From the NCBI GenBank assembly GCA_038087015.1, contig JASBNA010000043.1:1-64000 (forward strand): DNA of 64,000 bases, given 5' to 3'. The notes under the pieces are model-generated. The model made no database searches, had not been told where the DNA came from, and worked only from the letters and a program-made list of their open reading frames with translations. Origin of the DNA: Cerrena zonata (lineage: Eukaryota > Basidiomycota > Agaricomycetes > Polyporales > Cerrenaceae). Positions 21,691-50,259 of the stretch are shown here, piece after piece; positions within the stretch are counted from its first letter, which is position 1, and each line of letters opens with the position of its first letter. The translations under genes and the position numbers were made by a program.

Positions 21691-22768
21691 ATGTCTTTAA
21701 ATTTATCTAGAAAATCCGGTGTTATCTACGGGGATGACGTTCGTCAATTGTTCTTATACGCTCAAGCCAAAGGTTTTGCTATTCCAGCCATTAACGTTAC
21801 TTCTTCTTCTACTGTTGTTGCTGCTTTAGAAGCTGCTAGAGACAACAAGTCTCCAATTATCTTACAAACCTCTAACGGGGGTGCTGCTTACTTTGCTGGT
21901 AAAGGTGTTTCTAATGACGGTCAATCTGCTTCTATCCAAGGTTCAATTGCTGCTGCTCATTACATTAGAGCCATTGCTCCAGCCTACGGTATTCCAGTTG
22001 TTTTACACACTGATCACTGTGCTAAGAAATTATTACCATGGTTTGATGGTATGATTAAAGCCGACGAAGAATTCTTTGCTAAAACCGGTGAACCTCTTTT
22101 CTCTTCTCATATGTTGGATTTATCTGAAGAAACCGATGATGAAAACATTGCTACTTGTGTTAAATATTTTGAAAAAATGCATAAAATGGGTCAATTCTTG
22201 GAAATGGAAATTGGTATCACTGGTGGTGAAGAAGATGGGGTCAATAACGAACACGTTCAAAAAGAATCCTTATACACCTTACCTGAAACTGTTTACAAAG
22301 TTTTTGAAGCTTTAAGTCCAATTGGTCCAAACTTCTCCATTGCCGCTGCCTTCGGTAACGTTCACGGGGTTTACAAACCAGGTAACGTTCAATTAAAACC
22401 AGAAATTTTGGCTGAACACCAAAAATACGCCAAAGAACAATCTGGTTCTTCTAACGACAAACCATTATTCCTTGTTTTCCACGGTGGTTCTGGTTCTTCT
22501 CAAAAAGAATTTGATACCGCCATTAAATCTGGTGTTGTTAAAGGTTAACTTGGATACCGATTGTCAATATGCTTACTTGGAAGGTATCCGTGATTACGTT
22601 TTAAACAAGAAAGATTACATCTTAAGTCAAGTTGGTAACCCAGAAGGTGCTGATAAACCAAACAAAAAATTCTTTGATCCAAGAGTTTGGGTTAGAGAAG
22701 GTGAAAAAACCATGTCTAAAAGAATTACTGAAGCTTTAGAAATCTTCCACACTAAAGGTCAATTATAA
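21691..22768 (+). CDS. FBA1: Fructose-bisphosphate aldolase, class II (one-base frameshift)
   Basis: This is the glycolytic/gluconeogenic aldolase that cleaves fructose-1,6-bisphosphate; class II enzymes use zinc. LHTDHCAKK (about residues 105-113) carries metal-binding and catalytic residues. HVQKESLYTLPETVYKVFEALS and VFHGGSGSSQKEFDTAIKSGV are class II landmarks. The frame breaks at 22543-22544, where GG appears in place of G. Dropping one base joins SGVVK to VNLDTDCQYAYLEGIRDYV and on to a normal C-terminus, 358 residues in all. The codons are strongly biased, as for a very highly expressed gene. A broken single-copy aldolase is unlikely, so the shift is probably a sequence error. Confidence 0.95.
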
Positions 22769-37137: not shown

Positions 37138-38542
37138 ATGTCATCTACAGTGTTCTACAAGTTTCTTCACCAGAAGAACCAATCGACGATACATTTTGAT
37201 GGAACTGGGATAAATGTGTTTGACTTAAAGCACGAGATTATAATACAGAATCAATTGGGAGAAGGCCAGGATTTTTCATTGAGATTATATCATTCTGAAC
37301 AGCCCGATCTTGAATACGAAAATGATCAAGATGTTATACCCAGATCGTCGTTTGTGCTAGCAAGACGGTCCCCTGTATCGTTCAGGGGAGCCAGGTTTCA
37401 TAGTGCTGCTAGATACGTTACTGGTAAACCTCGTATTAATAAAAGAATGATTAATAATGCAAATGCATCTACTAGTAATCAGACTAATCCCGCACAGACA
37501 ACTGGTGCCACTGCAGTCGATGAGAACATGTCAGAAGAGGATAGAATCAAGATGATGTTTCAAAACCAGTCCAATGTTTGGGCCCAGACTCAAGATGAGT
37601 TATCAACACATAAGATGATTCACTTCAAGCCAACCGCGGGAGTTACCAACGCGGAAGACCTTCCTCCTCCTGGATACATGTGCTACCGATGCGGTGGGAA
37701 GGATCACTGGATTCGAAACTGTCCTACTAATACCGATCCTAATTTCGAAGGTAAGAAAATCAAAAAAACTACTGGTATTCCTAGATCTTATTTAAAGACA
37801 ATTTCCAAAGAGACTTTAGAAGGAGCAGCAGAAACTGGGAAGGACGGTATCACCAGAAATGAAGATGGGGAATTAATCGATGCTAAGGGGAATACCTATA
37901 TGATAACCGAAGACGGTGAATATGTAATAGCCATGGCTGATAACAAGACTTGGCTTAATTATCAACAAAAACAACAAAATGCAGTAATGAAGGCTAAAAT
38001 CGAGTTTGAACAAAAATTATCAGAGAGAATCGAACAAGATAAAAAAACTGAATTTTTAGACCCTCTAAAATCAAATAAAGTTTTAAGAAGCCCAATAGTG
38101 ATGACTCCCTGTTGTCAGGATAAATCCAAATTGAAAAATATGAAGAATTTCAATTACCATCAGCCTGATTTAGAACAATTACTAATCGATAAAGATTTCC
38201 ACTGTCCTAATTGCGATACAGAAGATATCTTTTTGGATTCCTTAATACGAAATACCGATCTAGAACAACAAATTAACGACTACGCCAAAGAAATCGGTTT
38301 GGAAAACCCCGATGAAGAGTCACTCAAGAGAAGCGTGGATGCCGTTCGAAGATGAAAACGACGGCAGTGATCCAAAAAGACAAAAAATCGGATTACCTTC
38401 AAAACCTAACTTACCCCTGGTTCCTCCAGCCATGGCTCCGTTTGGGATGCCTTTCATTCCTCCAGGCATGCCAATGCCTCCTATGTTCATGCCTCCCAAC
38501 TTCCAAACCCCTCCTCCAGGCACCGGCCAACCTGAAAAGTAA
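37138..38542 (+). CDS. MPE1: Cleavage/polyadenylation factor subunit Mpe1 (one-base frameshift)
   Basis: Component of the CPF 3'-end processing complex. The DWNN ubiquitin-like domain spans about residues 1-80 (VFYKFLHQKNQSTIHFDGTG, NVFDLKHEII). A CCHC zinc knuckle CYRCGGKDHWIRNC lies at about 182-195. A RING-like module follows, from TPCCQDK (about 322) to FHCPNCDTEDIFLDSLIRN. The Pro-Met-rich tail lies in the next frame, joined if one base is dropped near 38343-38345, giving about 467 residues. An in-frame ATG at 37090 would add 16 residues before the DWNN domain and is less likely. MPE1 is essential in yeast, so the shift is probably an error. Confidence 0.92.
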
Positions 38543-38844
38543 TCTATGTATATACATATAATCATACAGTCAATACATAGTCAGTATCCAAAGTATTTGC
38601 AGTAACCCTATACAAATTGTAGACCCAGACATTTCTGGGTGGAAGTTACCCGGCAATTCTTCGAGTGCGTGAAAAAGTTCAACTACTTAAAGTTAAAAAT
38701 TTTCACTTTCTTTTACTTTCCTTTTCTTCTTTTTATTTGCCAGAATGTCAGCTTAATGAAGGTGTTGGTGACAACTTTAAGACCTTGAGTTCAAAGTGTA
38801 TGTTTGCAACCTACTAGTATGCTTTTTCATACCTATGCGAATAT

Positions 38845-38939
38845 GAGTTTATCTGATGAACGAAATTAAAAAATTTTCAAACTAGAGTTTGTGACTACGG
38901 AATGATCACAGTTAATGCATGGCTTACTGAACTAAATTC
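38845..38939 (+). ncRNA. snR78: C/D snoRNA snR78 (25S U2421), with a second guide to 18S
   Basis: Intron 1. Box C CTGATGA 38853-38859, box D CTGA 38927-38930, terminal stem GAGTTT/AAATTC (38845-38850/38934-38939, one G-U). D' is GTGA at 38891-38894. The D' guide TCAAACTAGAGT (38877-38888) is complementary to the 25S segment ACUCUAGUUUGA and puts the +5 base on U2421, the snR78 target. The D guide ATGCATGGCTTA (38915-38926) is complementary to 12 bases of 18S near position 45-56 and would place methylation on about C49. rRNA sequences and numbering are S. cerevisiae, from memory. Confidence 0.88.
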
Positions 38940-39084
38940 AAAATACGCATATTGAATTGAAGCTACTTTTATATTTTGAAGATTCAAAATACTAACTTTT
39001 TATTTAGCTTTGAGCTGTTGCTAATTTTCCATTTGAGCTATATAAATCGTATGTTTTATTTTATTTTGACAATTAGAACTTTAT

Positions 39085-39176
39085 ATATTATAATGATGAG
39101 AAATCAAAAAGAAAGCTGGAATTACCTACTGAATCTCTTTGATTGATAAATTTTTGCACCTTCGCTGATATAATAT
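39085..39176 (+). ncRNA. snR77: C/D snoRNA snR77 (18S U578)
   Basis: Intron 2. Box C ATGATGA 39093-39099, D' CTGA 39129-39132, box D CTGA 39165-39168, terminal stem ATATTAT/ATAATAT. The D' guide AGCTGGAATTACC (39114-39126, 13 bases) pairs with the universally conserved 18S segment GGUAAUUCCAGCU, and the +5 rule gives the U of GGU, i.e. U578, the known snR77 site. No second rRNA match was found for the box-D guide. Confidence 0.93.
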
Positions 39177-39277
39177 CTTAAGATCTAAATTTGATTAAAA
39201 AATTTAAAGTACAATAAACTAACTAGTATTTAGGTATGTCAAGTTTTATAATTTAATATGATTGTTGACCTTATACT

Positions 39278-39382
39278 TGAATTTTTTCATGAGGAATGAT
39301 TGCACTGGGCACTGAATAACTTTATGAGTGACAATGCATAAATGGTGGGCCTCAGAAACCCATCGTAACTGATTTGAATTCA
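39278..39382 (+). ncRNA. snR76: C/D snoRNA snR76 (25S C2197)
   Basis: Intron 3. Box C ATGAGGA (39289-39295, one mismatch), D' CTGA 39312-39315, box D CTGA 39369-39372, terminal stem TGAATT/AATTCA. The D' guide GCACTGGGCA (39302-39311) pairs with the 25S segment UGCCCAGUGC; +5 falls on the third C, C2197. The target of the box-D guide is unknown to me. Confidence 0.88.
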
Positions 39383-39510
39383 TTTATTTTGGTTTGCAAT
39401 GATGTTATTATTGTTTAATAAAGGATATATGTTAACTGTTGAATAGACGTTTGGGTTTATTACTTTTCATGCAAAAGTTAAACTGTATGTATACATCTTC
39501 CATATGATTT

Positions 39511-39604
39511 GATAGATGATGATCTCCTAGATGACGAGTCAGAATTTCGGGATTCCCGTTGATGACAACCTTTTTTTAATACCATTCATGCATTTCTGAT
39601 ATCT
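39511..39604 (+). ncRNA. snR75: C/D snoRNA snR75 (25S G2288), possible second target
   Basis: Intron 4. Box C ATGATGA 39516-39522, D' CAGA 39540-39543, C' TTGATGA 39559-39565, box D CTGA 39596-39599, terminal stem GATA/TATC. The D' guide TAGATGACGAG (39528-39538) pairs with the 25S segment CUCGUCAUCUA and puts +5 on G2288, the snR75 site. The box-D guide CCATTCATGC (39582-39591) pairs with GCAUGAAUGG about 20 bases downstream in 25S; +5 would be a G near position 2307. Confidence 0.9.
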
Positions 39605-39750
39605 AAACAATATTTCAAAATTGTGAAAAGCAATTACTAACAATGGTAGCTTTCTCTGAAACTCTTTTCGTTTCCATGGTTGGAAATTCTAGTGTTACAG
39701 TTGGTGGAAGGATTTTCATCTGGTCATATTTCTGATTTGAGTGTTTTATT

Positions 39751-39842
39751 TATGGTTTTTAAAGGATGAATTTGAAAAATAAAAGACAAGCATATGTCTG
39801 AATTCTATAAAGAAGACAATTTTTTCATGTCTGATAGCCATA
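39751..39842 (+). ncRNA. snR74: C/D snoRNA snR74 (18S A28)
   Basis: Box C AGGATGA (39763-39769, one mismatch), D' CTGA 39798-39801, box D CTGA 39831-39834, terminal stem TATGG/CCATA. The D' guide AGACAAGCATATG (39784-39796, 13 bases) pairs with the 18S 5' end CAUAUGCUUGUCU; +5 is A28, the snR74 site. No convincing 5' splice site lies between the previous 3' splice site (39649) and this snoRNA. Confidence 0.9.
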
Positions 39843-39983
39843 TTTATCTACAATACTCGGTCTTTGAATTTTGATCAAAATATTGTTAAATTCTTTTGAT
39901 GGACTCAATAGTTTGATGATTATTTCGTCTTCTAAAAGGTATGTTTCTATTTTTTTATATTTTATTTTGTTCCCCTTCTTGAT

Positions 39984-40100
39984 AATGTTTATGATGATTA
40001 TACCACAATTATCACGACGGTCTACTGCGTATTGGAACTTGTAATTCCTTTACTTTGATGATAAATTTTGGCCTTGACCGGCCGTGGTTCCTGATACATT
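39984..40100 (+). ncRNA. snR73: C/D snoRNA snR73 (25S C2959)
   Basis: In intron 39939-40159. Box C ATGATGA 39991-39997, D' CTGC 40025-40028, C' TTGATGA 40055-40061, box D CTGA 40091-40094, terminal stem AATGT/ACATT. The D' guide TCACGACGGTCTA (40012-40024, 13 bases) pairs with 25S UAGACCGUCGUGA; +5 gives the first C after UAGA, C2959, the snR73 site. D' is degenerate, as is common. Confidence 0.92.
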
Positions 40101-40206
40101 TAATTTAAATCAAGATTGACAATGTTTTCTTCGATTCATGTTCTAACAAATTATTCTAGAATTTATTCAATACCATATTTCTTCACCTTCTCATGTAATT
40201 TACTTA

Positions 40207-40297
40207 GTATTCTATGATGACCTTTAGTTACATTGAAAATATTTTTAATGAAACCTCAATAAAAATAATTCGATTTGCATGTCAGTCTGATCTATAC
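40207..40297 (+). ncRNA. snR72: C/D snoRNA snR72 (25S A876)
   Basis: Box C ATGATGA 40214-40220, box D CTGA 40287-40290, short stem GTAT/ATAC. The guide at 40270-40285 (16 bases, TCGATTTGCATGTCAG) pairs with 25S CUGACGUGCAAAUCGA with one G-U; +5 gives A876, the snR72 site. It lies after the last clear 3' splice site (40159), and no obvious 5' splice site precedes it. Confidence 0.9.
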
Positions 40298-40557
40298 AAT
40301 TGTATATTACATGAGACATTAGTTTATATCCAAGTAATATATATCCAAAACTCATCCATCGTCTGTAGTCTTATACTTTGTAATAGTTGAAAAAAAATTT
40401 AGAGGTGAAAAAAAAAAGAATTAAAAAAAGCGCAAAAACCGCTCCATCGCAGAACATGGTTTTTATCAGTTACTGTTTTATTGAATAAATTGGGTTTTAG
40501 GCTGTTACAGAATCACCGACGAGTTTAGTCAATAGAAGGAAGTCTGTTCAGGTCATT

Positions 40558-43375
40558 ATGCCTTTCCATATTTCAAAATTATCCCATATATCAGATAATA
40601 AAACTGCAAAAAAAGAAGGAAAAGATCTTCAACCCGTTTTATCAAATGATCCTCCATCGTACGATGACTCCATGCATTCATCTTCTTCTCATAGTAATAC
40701 AGTCACCCCAATTACTACACCCTCTAATGGAGGGAGACTGAGTCCTGCTCCAGCAATCACTGGTAATAGCAGTAGCAGCATTTTAAGGTCAGTAAAATCA
40801 AATACCCATCAGAATAAACCATATAGACCCTCAAAAGAGCAGCAAGGACAAATTGATCTTTTAAATGGTATAAACTCATTATCATCGGTTAGCTCAGGAG
40901 CACAGACGGAATACTTTGATGTTCTACCGTCATTTCAAATGTTTCAATCCATTTTGAAAAGAGATGATAGTCAATTTAGTGAAAATTTATTAATTGATCC
41001 TCCTGTTTATGGTGATACAACCCACTCTTCTCCCACCCCGCCAAGGTCTCCTCCAGGAAGGTCAGGGAATGAAAATACCAATAATGTAATGGACAGTGTT
41101 TCACAAAGACTAAGTGATTATGGATTGGGTGAAGATAATTCACGTCCTTATGAAGAAGAAGAAGAGAACTTTCTCTTCTCTGATGAAGACCCTCAGCCCG
41201 ATGGTAGTAATGCAAATAGCCAGACTGGGTCAGCTGAAGGAGTATCGACTCATGAAACCTACGGCCATACTGTTCTTGATAACATTGATCGATTACCTCA
41301 ATTGAATACCTCACCAATTGATATTCAAATTGTCGTAGCTAAAGGTGTTCCTCAAGCAAATGCAGCTACAGAAGCAGAAACCAGACTCAAAGAATATACT
41401 AGTGGCGATTTAGTGAATGGTTATATTATCATCACTAATAAGTCCGATAAACCGGTTGATTTTGGTTTATTTACCGTTAGTTTGGAAGGAACTATTAAGG
41501 CAACAGAACGAGATTTAAATATAAGTGATTTTACTCTTCACAAATTTAAAAAAGTTCTTATAAAAAAATTTTTAAAAATGTATGATTTGAATGCAAGTTA
41601 TGGGTATACCCATATTCCAAATAGTGCTGGTATTGAGTATGAAGCATTTACTAATGATGAATATGACGGTTGTCAGCTTGGTCTTCCAGATGAAAGAATT
41701 CTTCTCCCCCATGTAAAATACAAAAAATTCTTTACTTTTAAATTTCCAACCAAGCTTCTTGATAATAATTGTGTGGATAATTTATTACCACATAATCTTC
41801 CTCCTCCATCTATGGGATTGGATAAAACTTGCTTTTATAATAGAGGTGACACTATTCAACTCAATAAGGCCTTGGGATACGGGTTCTTAAATGTTCGAGG
41901 TACTCCACTTTTAACGAGAGACTATGCGTTTGATGATGTAAGTATAAGCTATACAATCGAGGCAAAGTTCATTGATAAATTAGATGCCGGATAACCAAGA
42001 TCCATTATCACAACATGAAATTAACGATCCTAATAGTGATTCCAATTATGTGATTTCCAAACATAATCAATATTTCTTACGATTTATTCCTGATTTAAGA
42101 GAACAATTAGAATATTTCAATCAAGGGTATCAGTTATTAACTTCCACTTATGAAACGATGGGAATTGATGGTAAACTATTTCAAAATTATATTCAATTAA
42201 GTTCTTGGAGAGCGATTCATGAGCTCAATTCTCAAATAGAGAGAGAAATTGACGTTAGATTAGCTTCAGAGGAGTTGAGCATTGAAGAAATGAAACATAA
42301 AAATTTGCTCATTGAAAACCGAGATTTCACCACGAATACAATAAACCAATTGGACTTAAAAGATCACATAACCCGTCAAATATACTATGATCGAGGAAAT
42401 TCTTGGGAAGTTGATGACATGCTAGAATATCAAGATAAAAGAATGATAAGTAATAAAGTACCAATTAGTGTTTTTGGTAAAAAGAAGAAGAAAATTTTAT
42501 CTTCATTAGTTTACATTGGGAAGCTGAGACTATACGTGAAGGTTCCTAGTAAAATATTTCCTTACTCATCACCTAAGCTTTTAATGAAATACAATACTCC
42601 CCCAGAGGATAATGGAGCTGGTATCCATTCTACCATAACGGGACAGTCTGTTGCATCGAGTGAGTCTCTTAAACCAACCTCATCAATTGCAAGTAATATG
42701 CTAAATATTTACCATAGAAAGGATAATTTAACCGAAGTTGAAATCGAGCTAGTATTTGAACCAAACAACAACTCTAATAAACCGCCATTGATCAGTCAAC
42801 TTGAAACAAATTTGGTGTTCTGGTCATTTAATACCGAATATCCCTTACCAATTGAAATGAACTATGATTTTTTCTATAAAAATGGGGAAAAAATTGAAGT
42901 TAAAAACCCAGAGGCTTCAGAGGAAGATGACGTTGAAATCACGAGAAAAAACTTACAGGCACTTAAAGATCAAGCCAAAAATTATATAAATTTCTTAAAG
43001 GTCAATAAAACTTTCATTTCCAAGTCTTCTTTTCTTTATTTGAAAGCCATCAAAAGTTTGGGAATCAAAAAAGACATTATCAAAGACTATTTCGAAACGT
43101 TGACTCTGACCACACACAACTCTTTGTTAAACGACGAATCCGGCTGGCAGATCAAGCAATTGCCCAATCAGAAATTCAGATACATCAAAAAGTTAACCAT
43201 CCCCTTAACTACAATCAACAAGAATAACATCACGCTTCTCCCCAGTTTCCAAAGCTGCTTGGTTGGTAGAATATACTGCTTGCAAGTTGTTGTCAAATAC
43301 AAAGGCAGTGGAGGTGACCAAAATGAGTTTGCCGATAACATAGTTAGAGTCGATGTCCCTATATTAGTGGGATAA
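40558..43375 (+). CDS. BUL1: Rsp5 ubiquitin-ligase adaptor Bul1/Bul2-like (one-base frameshift)
   Basis: Arrestin-like adaptor that brings the HECT ligase Rsp5 to permeases and other cargo for ubiquitination and endocytosis. PPSYDD (about residue 32) is the PY motif that binds Rsp5 WW domains. The N-terminal half has the Bul N-domain (TSGDLVNGYIIITNKSDKPVDFGLFTVSLEGTI), and the second open frame (41984-43375) is the Bul C-domain ending in IVRVDVPILVG. The two overlap by a one-base shift near 41983. Dropping one base gives a continuous 938-residue protein, close to S. cerevisiae Bul1 (976). BUL1 and BUL2 cannot be separated here. Confidence 0.87.
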
Positions 43376-48340: not shown

Positions 48341-49152
48341 ATGTCATATGGTCCAAAAGCTGCCGAAAGATTGGCTCAAAAAGTAGTTCTTATCACTGGT
48401 GCTAGTGCTGGTATTGGTGAAGCCACCGCTAAAGAAATAGCTGATGCTGCTGCTGGAGATGTCAAATTAATTCTTACCGCTAGAAGAAAAGATAAATTAG
48501 ATTCATTATCTGATTCTTTAATCAAACAATATCCAGATATCAAAGTGTTAACTACCGAACTCGATGTTTCCAAAACCGACACCATTCAACCTTTTCTTAA
48601 TGGATTACCCGAAGAATTTGCTGATATTGACGTATTGATTAATAACGCTGGTAAAGCTTTAGGTAGAGATGATATTGGTACCATTTTACAAGACGATATC
48701 GAAGGCATGTTTCAAACAAACGTCTTGGGGTTGATTGCATTAACCCAAGCTGTTTTGCCAATCTTTAAAAAGAAAAACTCTGGTGATATTGTAAACTTAG
48801 GCTCAATTGCCGGTCGTGATAGTTATCCAGGTGGTGGGATTTACTGTCCTACAAAAGCTGCAGTTAAATCTTTCAGTCAAGTCTTAAGAAAAGAATTGAT
48901 CAACACCTAGAATTAGAGTCTTAGAAGTCGATCCCTGGTAATGTTGAAACAGAATTCTCAAACACAAGATTTAAAGGTGATTTAGAAAAAGCTAAAAAAG
49001 TTTATGAAGATACTATTCCTCTCGTTGCTGAAGATATCGCAGAAATCATTGTCTTTGGTATCACTAGAAAACAAAATACAGTTATTGCCGAGACTTTGGT
49101 CTTCAGTTCTAATCAAGCCTCTGCCTCTCATCTCTACCGTGGTAAAATTTAA
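48341..49152 (+). CDS. SDR oxidoreductase, Ydf1/Tma29-like, copy 1 (two frameshifts)
   Basis: NADP-dependent short-chain dehydrogenase, like S. cerevisiae YMR226C, which oxidises serine and 3-hydroxy acids. [17 protein letters not shown] (cofactor loop), INNAGKALG, and YCPTKAAVK with the catalytic Tyr/Lys are intact. Two one-base insertions near 48908 (extra T) and 48933-48935 (CCC for CC) break it close to the C-terminus. Skipping both gives 269 residues ending RGKI, collinear with copy 2. It may be a decaying copy or simply sequence error. It forms a tandem pair with the next gene. Confidence 0.8.
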
Positions 49153-49454: not shown

Positions 49455-50259
49455 ATGTCATTTGGTTCTAAAGCTGCTCAAAGATTAGCTAATAAAGTTA
49501 TTTTAATCACTGGTGCAAGTTCTGGTATTGGTGAAGCTACCGCTAGAGAAATTACTCAAGCTGCTGCTGGTAATGTTAAATTGATTCTTGCTGCAAGAAG
49601 AGAAGATAGATTAAGTACATTGACTTCAGAATTACTTAAATCATTTCCTTCTGTTAAAATACATAATGCTAAACTAGACGTTTCAGGTTCAAGAGTCAAT
49701 TGAACCGTTTATCAATAGTTTACCAAAAGAATTTGCCGATATCGACGTATTGATAAATAACGCTGGTAAAGCCTTAGGTAAAGATCAAGTTGGAGACTTG
49801 TTACAAGAGGATATTCAAGGGATGTTTCAAACTAATGTCTTGGGATTAATCAATTTAACTCAAGCAGTCTTACCAATATTTAAGAAAAAAAATTCTGGTG
49901 ATATAGTTAATATTGGTTCTGTTGCTGGCCATGAATCTTACCCAGGTGGTTCAGTCTATTGTAGCTCCAAAGCTGCAGTTAAGTTTTTCAGTCAATCTCT
50001 TAGAAAAGAATTGATTAATACTAAAATTAGAGTATTGGAAGTTGATCCCGGTGCAGTTGAAACTGAATTCTCTCTTGTTAGATTTAAACAAGATGCTCAA
50101 GCTGCGAAGAAAGTTTATGAAGGTACAACTCCTTTAGATGCTTCTGATATAGCTGAAATCATTGTTTTTGGGCTTTCTAGAAAACAAAACACCGTTATTG
50201 CAGAAACTTTGGTCTTCCCAAGCCATCAAGCTTCTTCTGTTCATGTCCATAAAGGTTAA
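49455..50259 (+). CDS. SDR oxidoreductase, Ydf1/Tma29-like, copy 2 (one-base frameshift)
   Basis: Paralogue of the preceding gene. It has [29 protein letters not shown] and the catalytic segment [23 protein letters not shown], with Ser, Tyr and Lys present. An extra A near 49691 shifts the frame. Dropping it restores [31 protein letters not shown] and a 267-residue protein ending HVHKG. Predicted cytosolic NADP-dependent 3-hydroxy-acid or serine dehydrogenase. The second gene of a tandem duplication; decayed remnants lie downstream. Confidence 0.88.

Follow-up and report, generated by a model that had tools for sequence, protein, structure and literature searches.

A yeast snoRNA cluster I host with a predicted mix of intronic and exonic members and candidate RNase III hairpins in its spliced exons

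The snR72-78 polycistron of Saccharomyces cerevisiae, for which Qu et al. 1999 is reportedly the source, carries the snoRNAs of cluster I. They are separated by Rnt1 (PMC4330371), and they direct methylation of 25S Um2421 (snR78), 18S Um578 (snR77), 25S Cm2197 (snR76), 25S Gm2288 (snR75), 18S Am28 (snR74), 25S Cm2959 (snR73) and 25S Am876 (snR72) (PMC8307265). Across fungi the cluster is described as lying in introns, S. cerevisiae and close relatives excepted, and as having lost exons in such a way that introns stand side by side; the same report cites Mitrovich et al. 2010 for the loss of splice signals (PMC3596301). In Candida species five cluster I snoRNAs are reported to be intronic, and exonic and intronic members coexist; the study, on Candida parapsilosis, saw splicing by RNA-seq. 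That species usually has four introns, and its snR72 has moved out of the cluster (PMC5033589). The cluster and the idea of splice-site loss are thus already known from earlier work. A mixed host has also been described in Schizosaccharomyces pombe, where RNase III cuts a hairpin lying across an exon-exon junction of snR107-snoU14 (PMC12508059, whose main text nowhere contains the word Candida). Rnt1 itself is reported to cut its hairpins 14 nt upstream and 16 nt downstream of the loop; UGAU caps a proven Rnt1 substrate, in the BDF2 mRNA, and UGNN loops are bound more weakly (PMC13183374). The DCR1 gene of C. albicans is reported to be essential and to do the work of Rnt1 on rRNA and snoRNA (PMC11047096). 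We found no published report of RNase III-type hairpins in the spliced exons of cluster I, and no paper on RNase III sites at splice junctions of Candida snoRNA hosts was recognised among the matches listed, which lay mostly outside the subscription literature.

Within the window (the whole stretch of 64,000 nucleotides that was analysed), an Rfam search identified, between MPE1 and BUL1, seven box C/D snoRNAs on the + strand in the order snR78-77-76-75-74-73-72 (Table 1), which bears out the order given in a preliminary description of this DNA. The search had been proposed there as a check; it returned a family match for each of the seven, and only four of these (snR77, snR76, snR75 and snR73) reached the gathering score. 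The remaining three, namely snR78, snR74 (found as SNORD27) and snR72 (found as snoZ122, E 0.046), each match the family expected at that place in the series. Boxes C and D are present in all seven snoRNAs as had been claimed, while the terminal stem ascribed to each is clear in five, measures 5 bp in snR73 and is absent from the fold of snR72, where about 4 bp can be drawn by eye. Box C of snR76 reads ATGAGGA, and the D' boxes read GTGA in snR78, CAGA in snR75 and CTGC in snR73. In snR74 (39758-39838) box C is GGATGA and not TGATGA, either a natural variant or a sequencing error. These deviations in box C of snR74 and in box D' of snR78, snR73 and snR75, like the three scores below gathering, would fit a cluster copy that has decayed or fallen silent; against this, the guides and splice signals described below are all retained and the Rfam consensus of snR73 likewise has CUGc at D', and we give such a reading next to no credence. 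The host appears to be non-coding and the interval empty, as proposed: no ORF of at least 80 aa lies within 38566-40557 (one minus-strand ORF beneath the end of MPE1 extends to 38565), and the longest ATG ORF in the spliced exons has 45 aa, so that the gene, like cluster I hosts, is without a long ORF.

The flanking genes were assigned by their domains, DWNN and zinc-knuckle for MPE1, Bul1_N and Bul1_C for BUL1. Among the 120 of 256 MPE1 relatives that were listed, the closest named one is that of Priceomyces carsonii (69%), and the named relatives above 50% identity among those listed presumably all belong to CTG-clade genera. Judged from these MPE1 relatives, the cluster-bearing DNA is that of a CTG-clade yeast. 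CTG is rare in it, accounting for 40 of the 1282 leucine-box codons in 26 ORFs. One of the listed proteins, P0001 from a metagenome set, shows full identity over 99% of the MPE1 query. MPE1 (38340-38360) and BUL1 (41984-41994) are each split by a frame break; P0001 reads through the break in MPE1 and its C-terminus is found in another frame here, which makes an assembly error in MPE1 likely. Elsewhere in the window, a fructose-bisphosphate aldolase-like ORF recognised by eye (21691-22548) ends at 285 aa, and a further frame break seems likely there; yeast FBA1 has about 359 aa. Two similar tandem ORFs resembling short-chain dehydrogenases by eye (48341-48910 and 49822-50259) are both short and are perhaps a duplication or broken copies. 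Relatives of the cluster were sought through exact guide patterns, which picked out 7 (snR74), 28 (snR76) and 4 (snR75) stretches in viral_contigs and 18 (snR74) in genome_contigs; a BLAST of the cluster against those 57 loci found nothing cluster-like and no match above 49 bases.

The guides were compared with seven S. cerevisiae rRNA segments, used in place of the host's own rRNA. For each of the seven snoRNAs the best match is the expected one of these segments, over 10 to 18 bases with at most one G-U, the longest being that of snR72 (18 bases, one G-U). When counted by hand, the base five upstream of box D or D' faces the nucleotide listed for that snoRNA in Table 1 in every case, so the claim that the guides fall on the S. 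cerevisiae methylation sites stands for all seven, on these S. cerevisiae rRNA segments. Match length by itself is not beyond chance for snR76 (10 against a maximum of 11.5 in 100 shuffles) or snR74 (13 against 13.5), and snR78 has a second match on another rRNA segment that is nearly equal (12.0 against 12.5).

Five GTATGT motifs occur in the interval, each followed by a snoRNA, a branch-like motif and YAG, and these define five predicted introns (Table 1). Such intron-like units number 0.10 on average in shuffled sequence, with a maximum of 2, and none of 2000 shuffles reaches five; the minus strand has none. GTATGT alone averages 0.61 in shuffles and reaches five in 1 of 2000; branch-plus-YAG alone is weak, five being reached in 132 of 2000. 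The preliminary description had called the branch signals TACTAAC-like, and a motif does follow each of the five snoRNAs, while three of the five (AACTAAC, TGTTAAC and TTCTAAC) differ from TACTAAC. The TAG of intron 2 directly adjoins the GTATGT of intron 3, which leaves exon 3 with zero length; ordered or recursive splicing would therefore be needed. Upstream of exon 1, at 38600-38740, a AAAAATTTTCA word, a TTACCCG and a T-rich tract were noticed by eye. We take AAAAATTTTCA, TTACCCG and a T-rich tract together to be typical of yeast ribosome-biogenesis promoters. Inside snR78, positions 38887-38892 appear as GTTTGT; the same site reads GTCTGT in C. albicans, and in C. parapsilosis it is GTATGT and serves as a donor (PMC5033589).

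The claim that at least five of the snoRNAs lie between splice signals is therefore upheld for snR78, snR77, snR76, snR75 and snR73, but to call the cluster an intron-nested group of seven overstates the case. No GTATGT-like donor precedes and no YTAAC motif follows either snR74 or snR72, and hidden introns around them were rejected on this ground; the two are exonic in the predicted host. That all seven are intronic, with snR74 and snR72 held in introns of degenerate signals, could draw on the Neurospora counterpart of snR74, which is reported as intronic (PMC2780460). Besides the missing motifs, the report of five intronic members in Candida species (PMC5033589) speaks against such an arrangement, and we regard it as very improbable.

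Table 1. Predicted features of the cluster I locus, in positions of the window.
Feature	Positions	Strand	Remarks
Exon 1	38733..38797	+	Non-coding host, start assumed; ends at GTATGT 38798; 5' arm of exon 1/2 hairpin
AGUU tetraloop, exon 1/2 hairpin	38788..38791	+	Predicted; -18.3 kcal/mol spliced, -6.1 unspliced
Intron 1	38798..39007	+	GTATGT 38798; branch TACTAAC 38990; holds snR78
snR78	38849..38930	+	Intron 1; RF01176, 38.0 bits, below gathering 48; guide to 25S U2421
Exon 2	39008..39048	+	41 nt; 3' arm of exon 1/2 hairpin
Intron 2	39049..39233	+	GTATGT 39049; branch AACTAAC 39217; holds snR77
snR77	39089..39170	+	Intron 2; RF01181, 69.7 bits; guide to 18S U578
Intron 3	39234..39446	+	GTATGT 39234; abuts intron 2; branch-like TGTTAAC 39430; holds snR76
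snR76	39284..39376	+	Intron 3; RF01209, 74.7 bits; guide to 25S C2197
Exon 4	39447..39484	+	38 nt
Intron 4	39485..39649	+	GTATGT 39485; branch TACTAAC 39635; holds snR75
snR75	39514..39601	+	Intron 4; RF01185, 77.3 bits; guide to 25S G2288
Exon 5	39650..39938	+	289 nt, with snR74; no donor or branch motif inside
UGGU tetraloop, hairpin upstream of snR74	39677..39680	+	Predicted; -12.1 kcal/mol
snR74	39758..39838	+	Exonic, exon 5; SNORD27 family RF00086, 47.5 bits, below gathering 52; guide to 18S A28
UGAU tetraloop, exon 5/6 hairpin	39914..39917	+	Predicted; -13.1 kcal/mol spliced, -10.8 unspliced
Intron 5	39939..40159	+	GTATGT 39939; branch-like TTCTAAC 40141; holds snR73
snR73	39987..40096	+	Intron 5; RF01207, 58.4 bits; guide to 25S C2959
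Exon 6	40160..40350	+	Last exon, end assumed, with snR72; neither donor nor branch motif beyond 40159
snR72	40213..40290	+	Exonic, exon 6; snoZ122 family RF00343, 32.7 bits, below gathering 38; guide to 25S A876

Hairpins with (A/U)GNN loops, the signature of Rnt1, the RNase III of budding yeast, were sought in the spliced RNA as predicted (38733-40350; 624 nt, with start and end assumed). Three were found at or below -12 kcal/mol, with the loops AGUU (38788), UGGU (39677) and UGAU (39914). By comparison, 400 dinucleotide shuffles gave a mean of 0.0175 such hairpins and 87 stretches of the same length on the + strand of the window a mean of 0.09, none of either set having three, and the five predicted introns contain none. 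At the looser threshold of -9 kcal/mol the spliced exons hold these three tetraloop hairpins and a UGUU one (39016) that overlaps the AGUU hairpin, and all have A/U-G loops. As background, (A/U)GNN loops cap 23 of the 121 hairpins at or below -12 kcal/mol in 204 blocks on both strands, about 0.11 per block. The sequence itself shows the snoRNAs with their guides, the splice motifs and the predicted hairpins, each set against chance, the hairpin evidence coming from one sequence. The same mixed host could also be processed without these hairpins, which would then be chance structures in AT-rich exons, snR74 and snR72 being freed otherwise, for instance by exonuclease trimming of other cuts. Some of the folds are indeed ordinary when taken singly, the UGGU hairpin being matched by 85 of 1000 shuffles and the hairpin of exon 4 by 193 of 1000, and two of the four junctions tested have no hairpin on joining; set against this is the number of (A/U)GNN hairpins in the 624 nt, compared with shuffles and with other stretches alike. 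We judge processing without these hairpins to be rather unlikely.

Two of the hairpins straddle predicted junctions. In the first, exon 1 supplies the 5' arm and exon 2 the 3' arm, and with 24-nt arms the fold improves to the spliced value in Table 1 from that with intron 1 following. In a set of 380 pseudo-splices that includes it, no other does as well, the next being at -11.5. When the whole of exon 2 is used, equally good joining is seen in 2 of 1000 shuffles of exon 2 and at 2 of 1710 sliding acceptors; with exon 2 cut to 30 nt it is unremarkable, 4.5% of controls being as good. Folding of the unspliced RNA also predicts pairing of exon 1 with exon 2 (26.9 expected pairs, against 28.9 spliced), so that the pairing may have a role before splicing. 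Such pairing might loop out intron 1 and bring its splice sites together, with no RNase III acting there; this would leave unexplained the AGUU cap and the two other (A/U)GNN hairpins near the exonic snoRNAs, and we consider it quite improbable. Much of the UGAU hairpin would form before splicing, and it is lengthened by the start of exon 6 (24-nt arms). Its joining energy is -10.7 with exon 6 compared with -1.5 for the intron; 4 of 1373 YAG acceptors in the window lie at or below this value, the only one of 36 in the cluster being the real one, and of 1897 sliding sites 10 do as well, a count that takes in the real one. The same hairpin failed a stricter spanning test, with fewer than 8 crossing pairs. 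On total energy 421 of 1810 joins are as low, a control that is uninformative because other stretches bring their own folds; 8 of 1000 exon 6 shuffles reach it. At junctions 2/4 (where the left side included 19 nt of intron 1) and 4/5 no joining hairpin was found, and a joining test of exons 2 and 4 together with exon 5 gave no support for one. Of the junctions that precede an exonic snoRNA, 5/6 has a candidate hairpin by joining energy, partly present in the unspliced RNA and short of 8 crossing pairs, and 4/5 has none.

Altogether, we think it probable that this fungal cluster I is a mixed host, in which five intronic guides are spliced out and two exonic ones are freed by RNase III hairpins. 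We infer a single transcript, its actual splicing, and RNase III cutting together with its order. One host transcript would be spliced at five introns, and the excised introns would be debranched and trimmed to yield snR78, snR77, snR76, snR75 and snR73. The other two, snR74 and snR72, would remain in the spliced exons and most likely be freed by an RNase III that cuts the (A/U)GNN hairpins, in the role of Rnt1, which in C. albicans would fall to Dcr1, before exonucleases trim them. By arithmetic, cuts at the Rnt1 distances would leave 61 nt to be trimmed from each flank of snR74 and 58 nt from the upstream flank of snR72. As two hairpins straddle the exon 1/2 and exon 5/6 junctions, cutting there would be favoured after splicing. 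The seven freed snoRNAs would then guide 2'-O-methylation of rRNA.

For the history of the cluster, the locus adds a further species to an intermediate form, already described, that lies between hosts with intronic snoRNAs and the S. cerevisiae polycistron with no introns. The view that this polycistron arose when an intronic host lost its splice signals agrees with earlier work (PMC3596301, PMC5033589); the present window has the intermediate stage known from reports on the Candida clade and is, alone, no test of how the polycistron arose. The hairpins weigh more than the cluster: if real, they mean that one host gene is served by both splicing and RNase III, that the RNase III step partly depends on splicing, and that introns around snoRNAs would have a concrete way to decay while the snoRNAs are kept. 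RNase III hairpins completed by splicing might already have been present in the cluster I exons of the CTG clade, first ordering the processing of host and exonic snoRNAs, and when Saccharomyces lost the splice signals these ready-made sites might have let the host become an Rnt1-cut polycistron with every snoRNA kept; we put this forward as a speculation that is, on balance, unlikely to hold in full.

Compared with cluster I as described in Candida, the locus has the same seven snoRNAs in the same order, a non-coding host and a mix of intronic and exonic members. The number of intronic members, five, is that stated for Candida species, and adjacent introns with no exon between them are known from such clusters; C. 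parapsilosis differs, with four introns and snR72 gone, where five introns are predicted here and snR72 is in place. The S. cerevisiae polycistron shares the snoRNAs, and its separation by Rnt1 finds a parallel in the (A/U)GNN hairpins predicted here; there, however, no introns are present, while here introns enclose five of the seven snoRNAs and the hairpins number only three. In relation to snR107-snoU14 of S. pombe, cleavage was demonstrated there and is predicted from sequence here, the loops are (A/U)GNN in contrast to the varied loops tolerated by S. pombe Pac1, and the strongest junction hairpin, that of exon 1/2, does not lie beside an exonic snoRNA, unlike the S. pombe site. An intronic snoRNA followed by an exonic one in the next exon, as at that site, occurs twice (snR75-snR74 and snR73-snR72). 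Both loci, the present one by prediction, are mixed hosts, and a candidate hairpin across a junction between an intronic snoRNA and the next exonic one is predicted here too, between snR73 and snR72.
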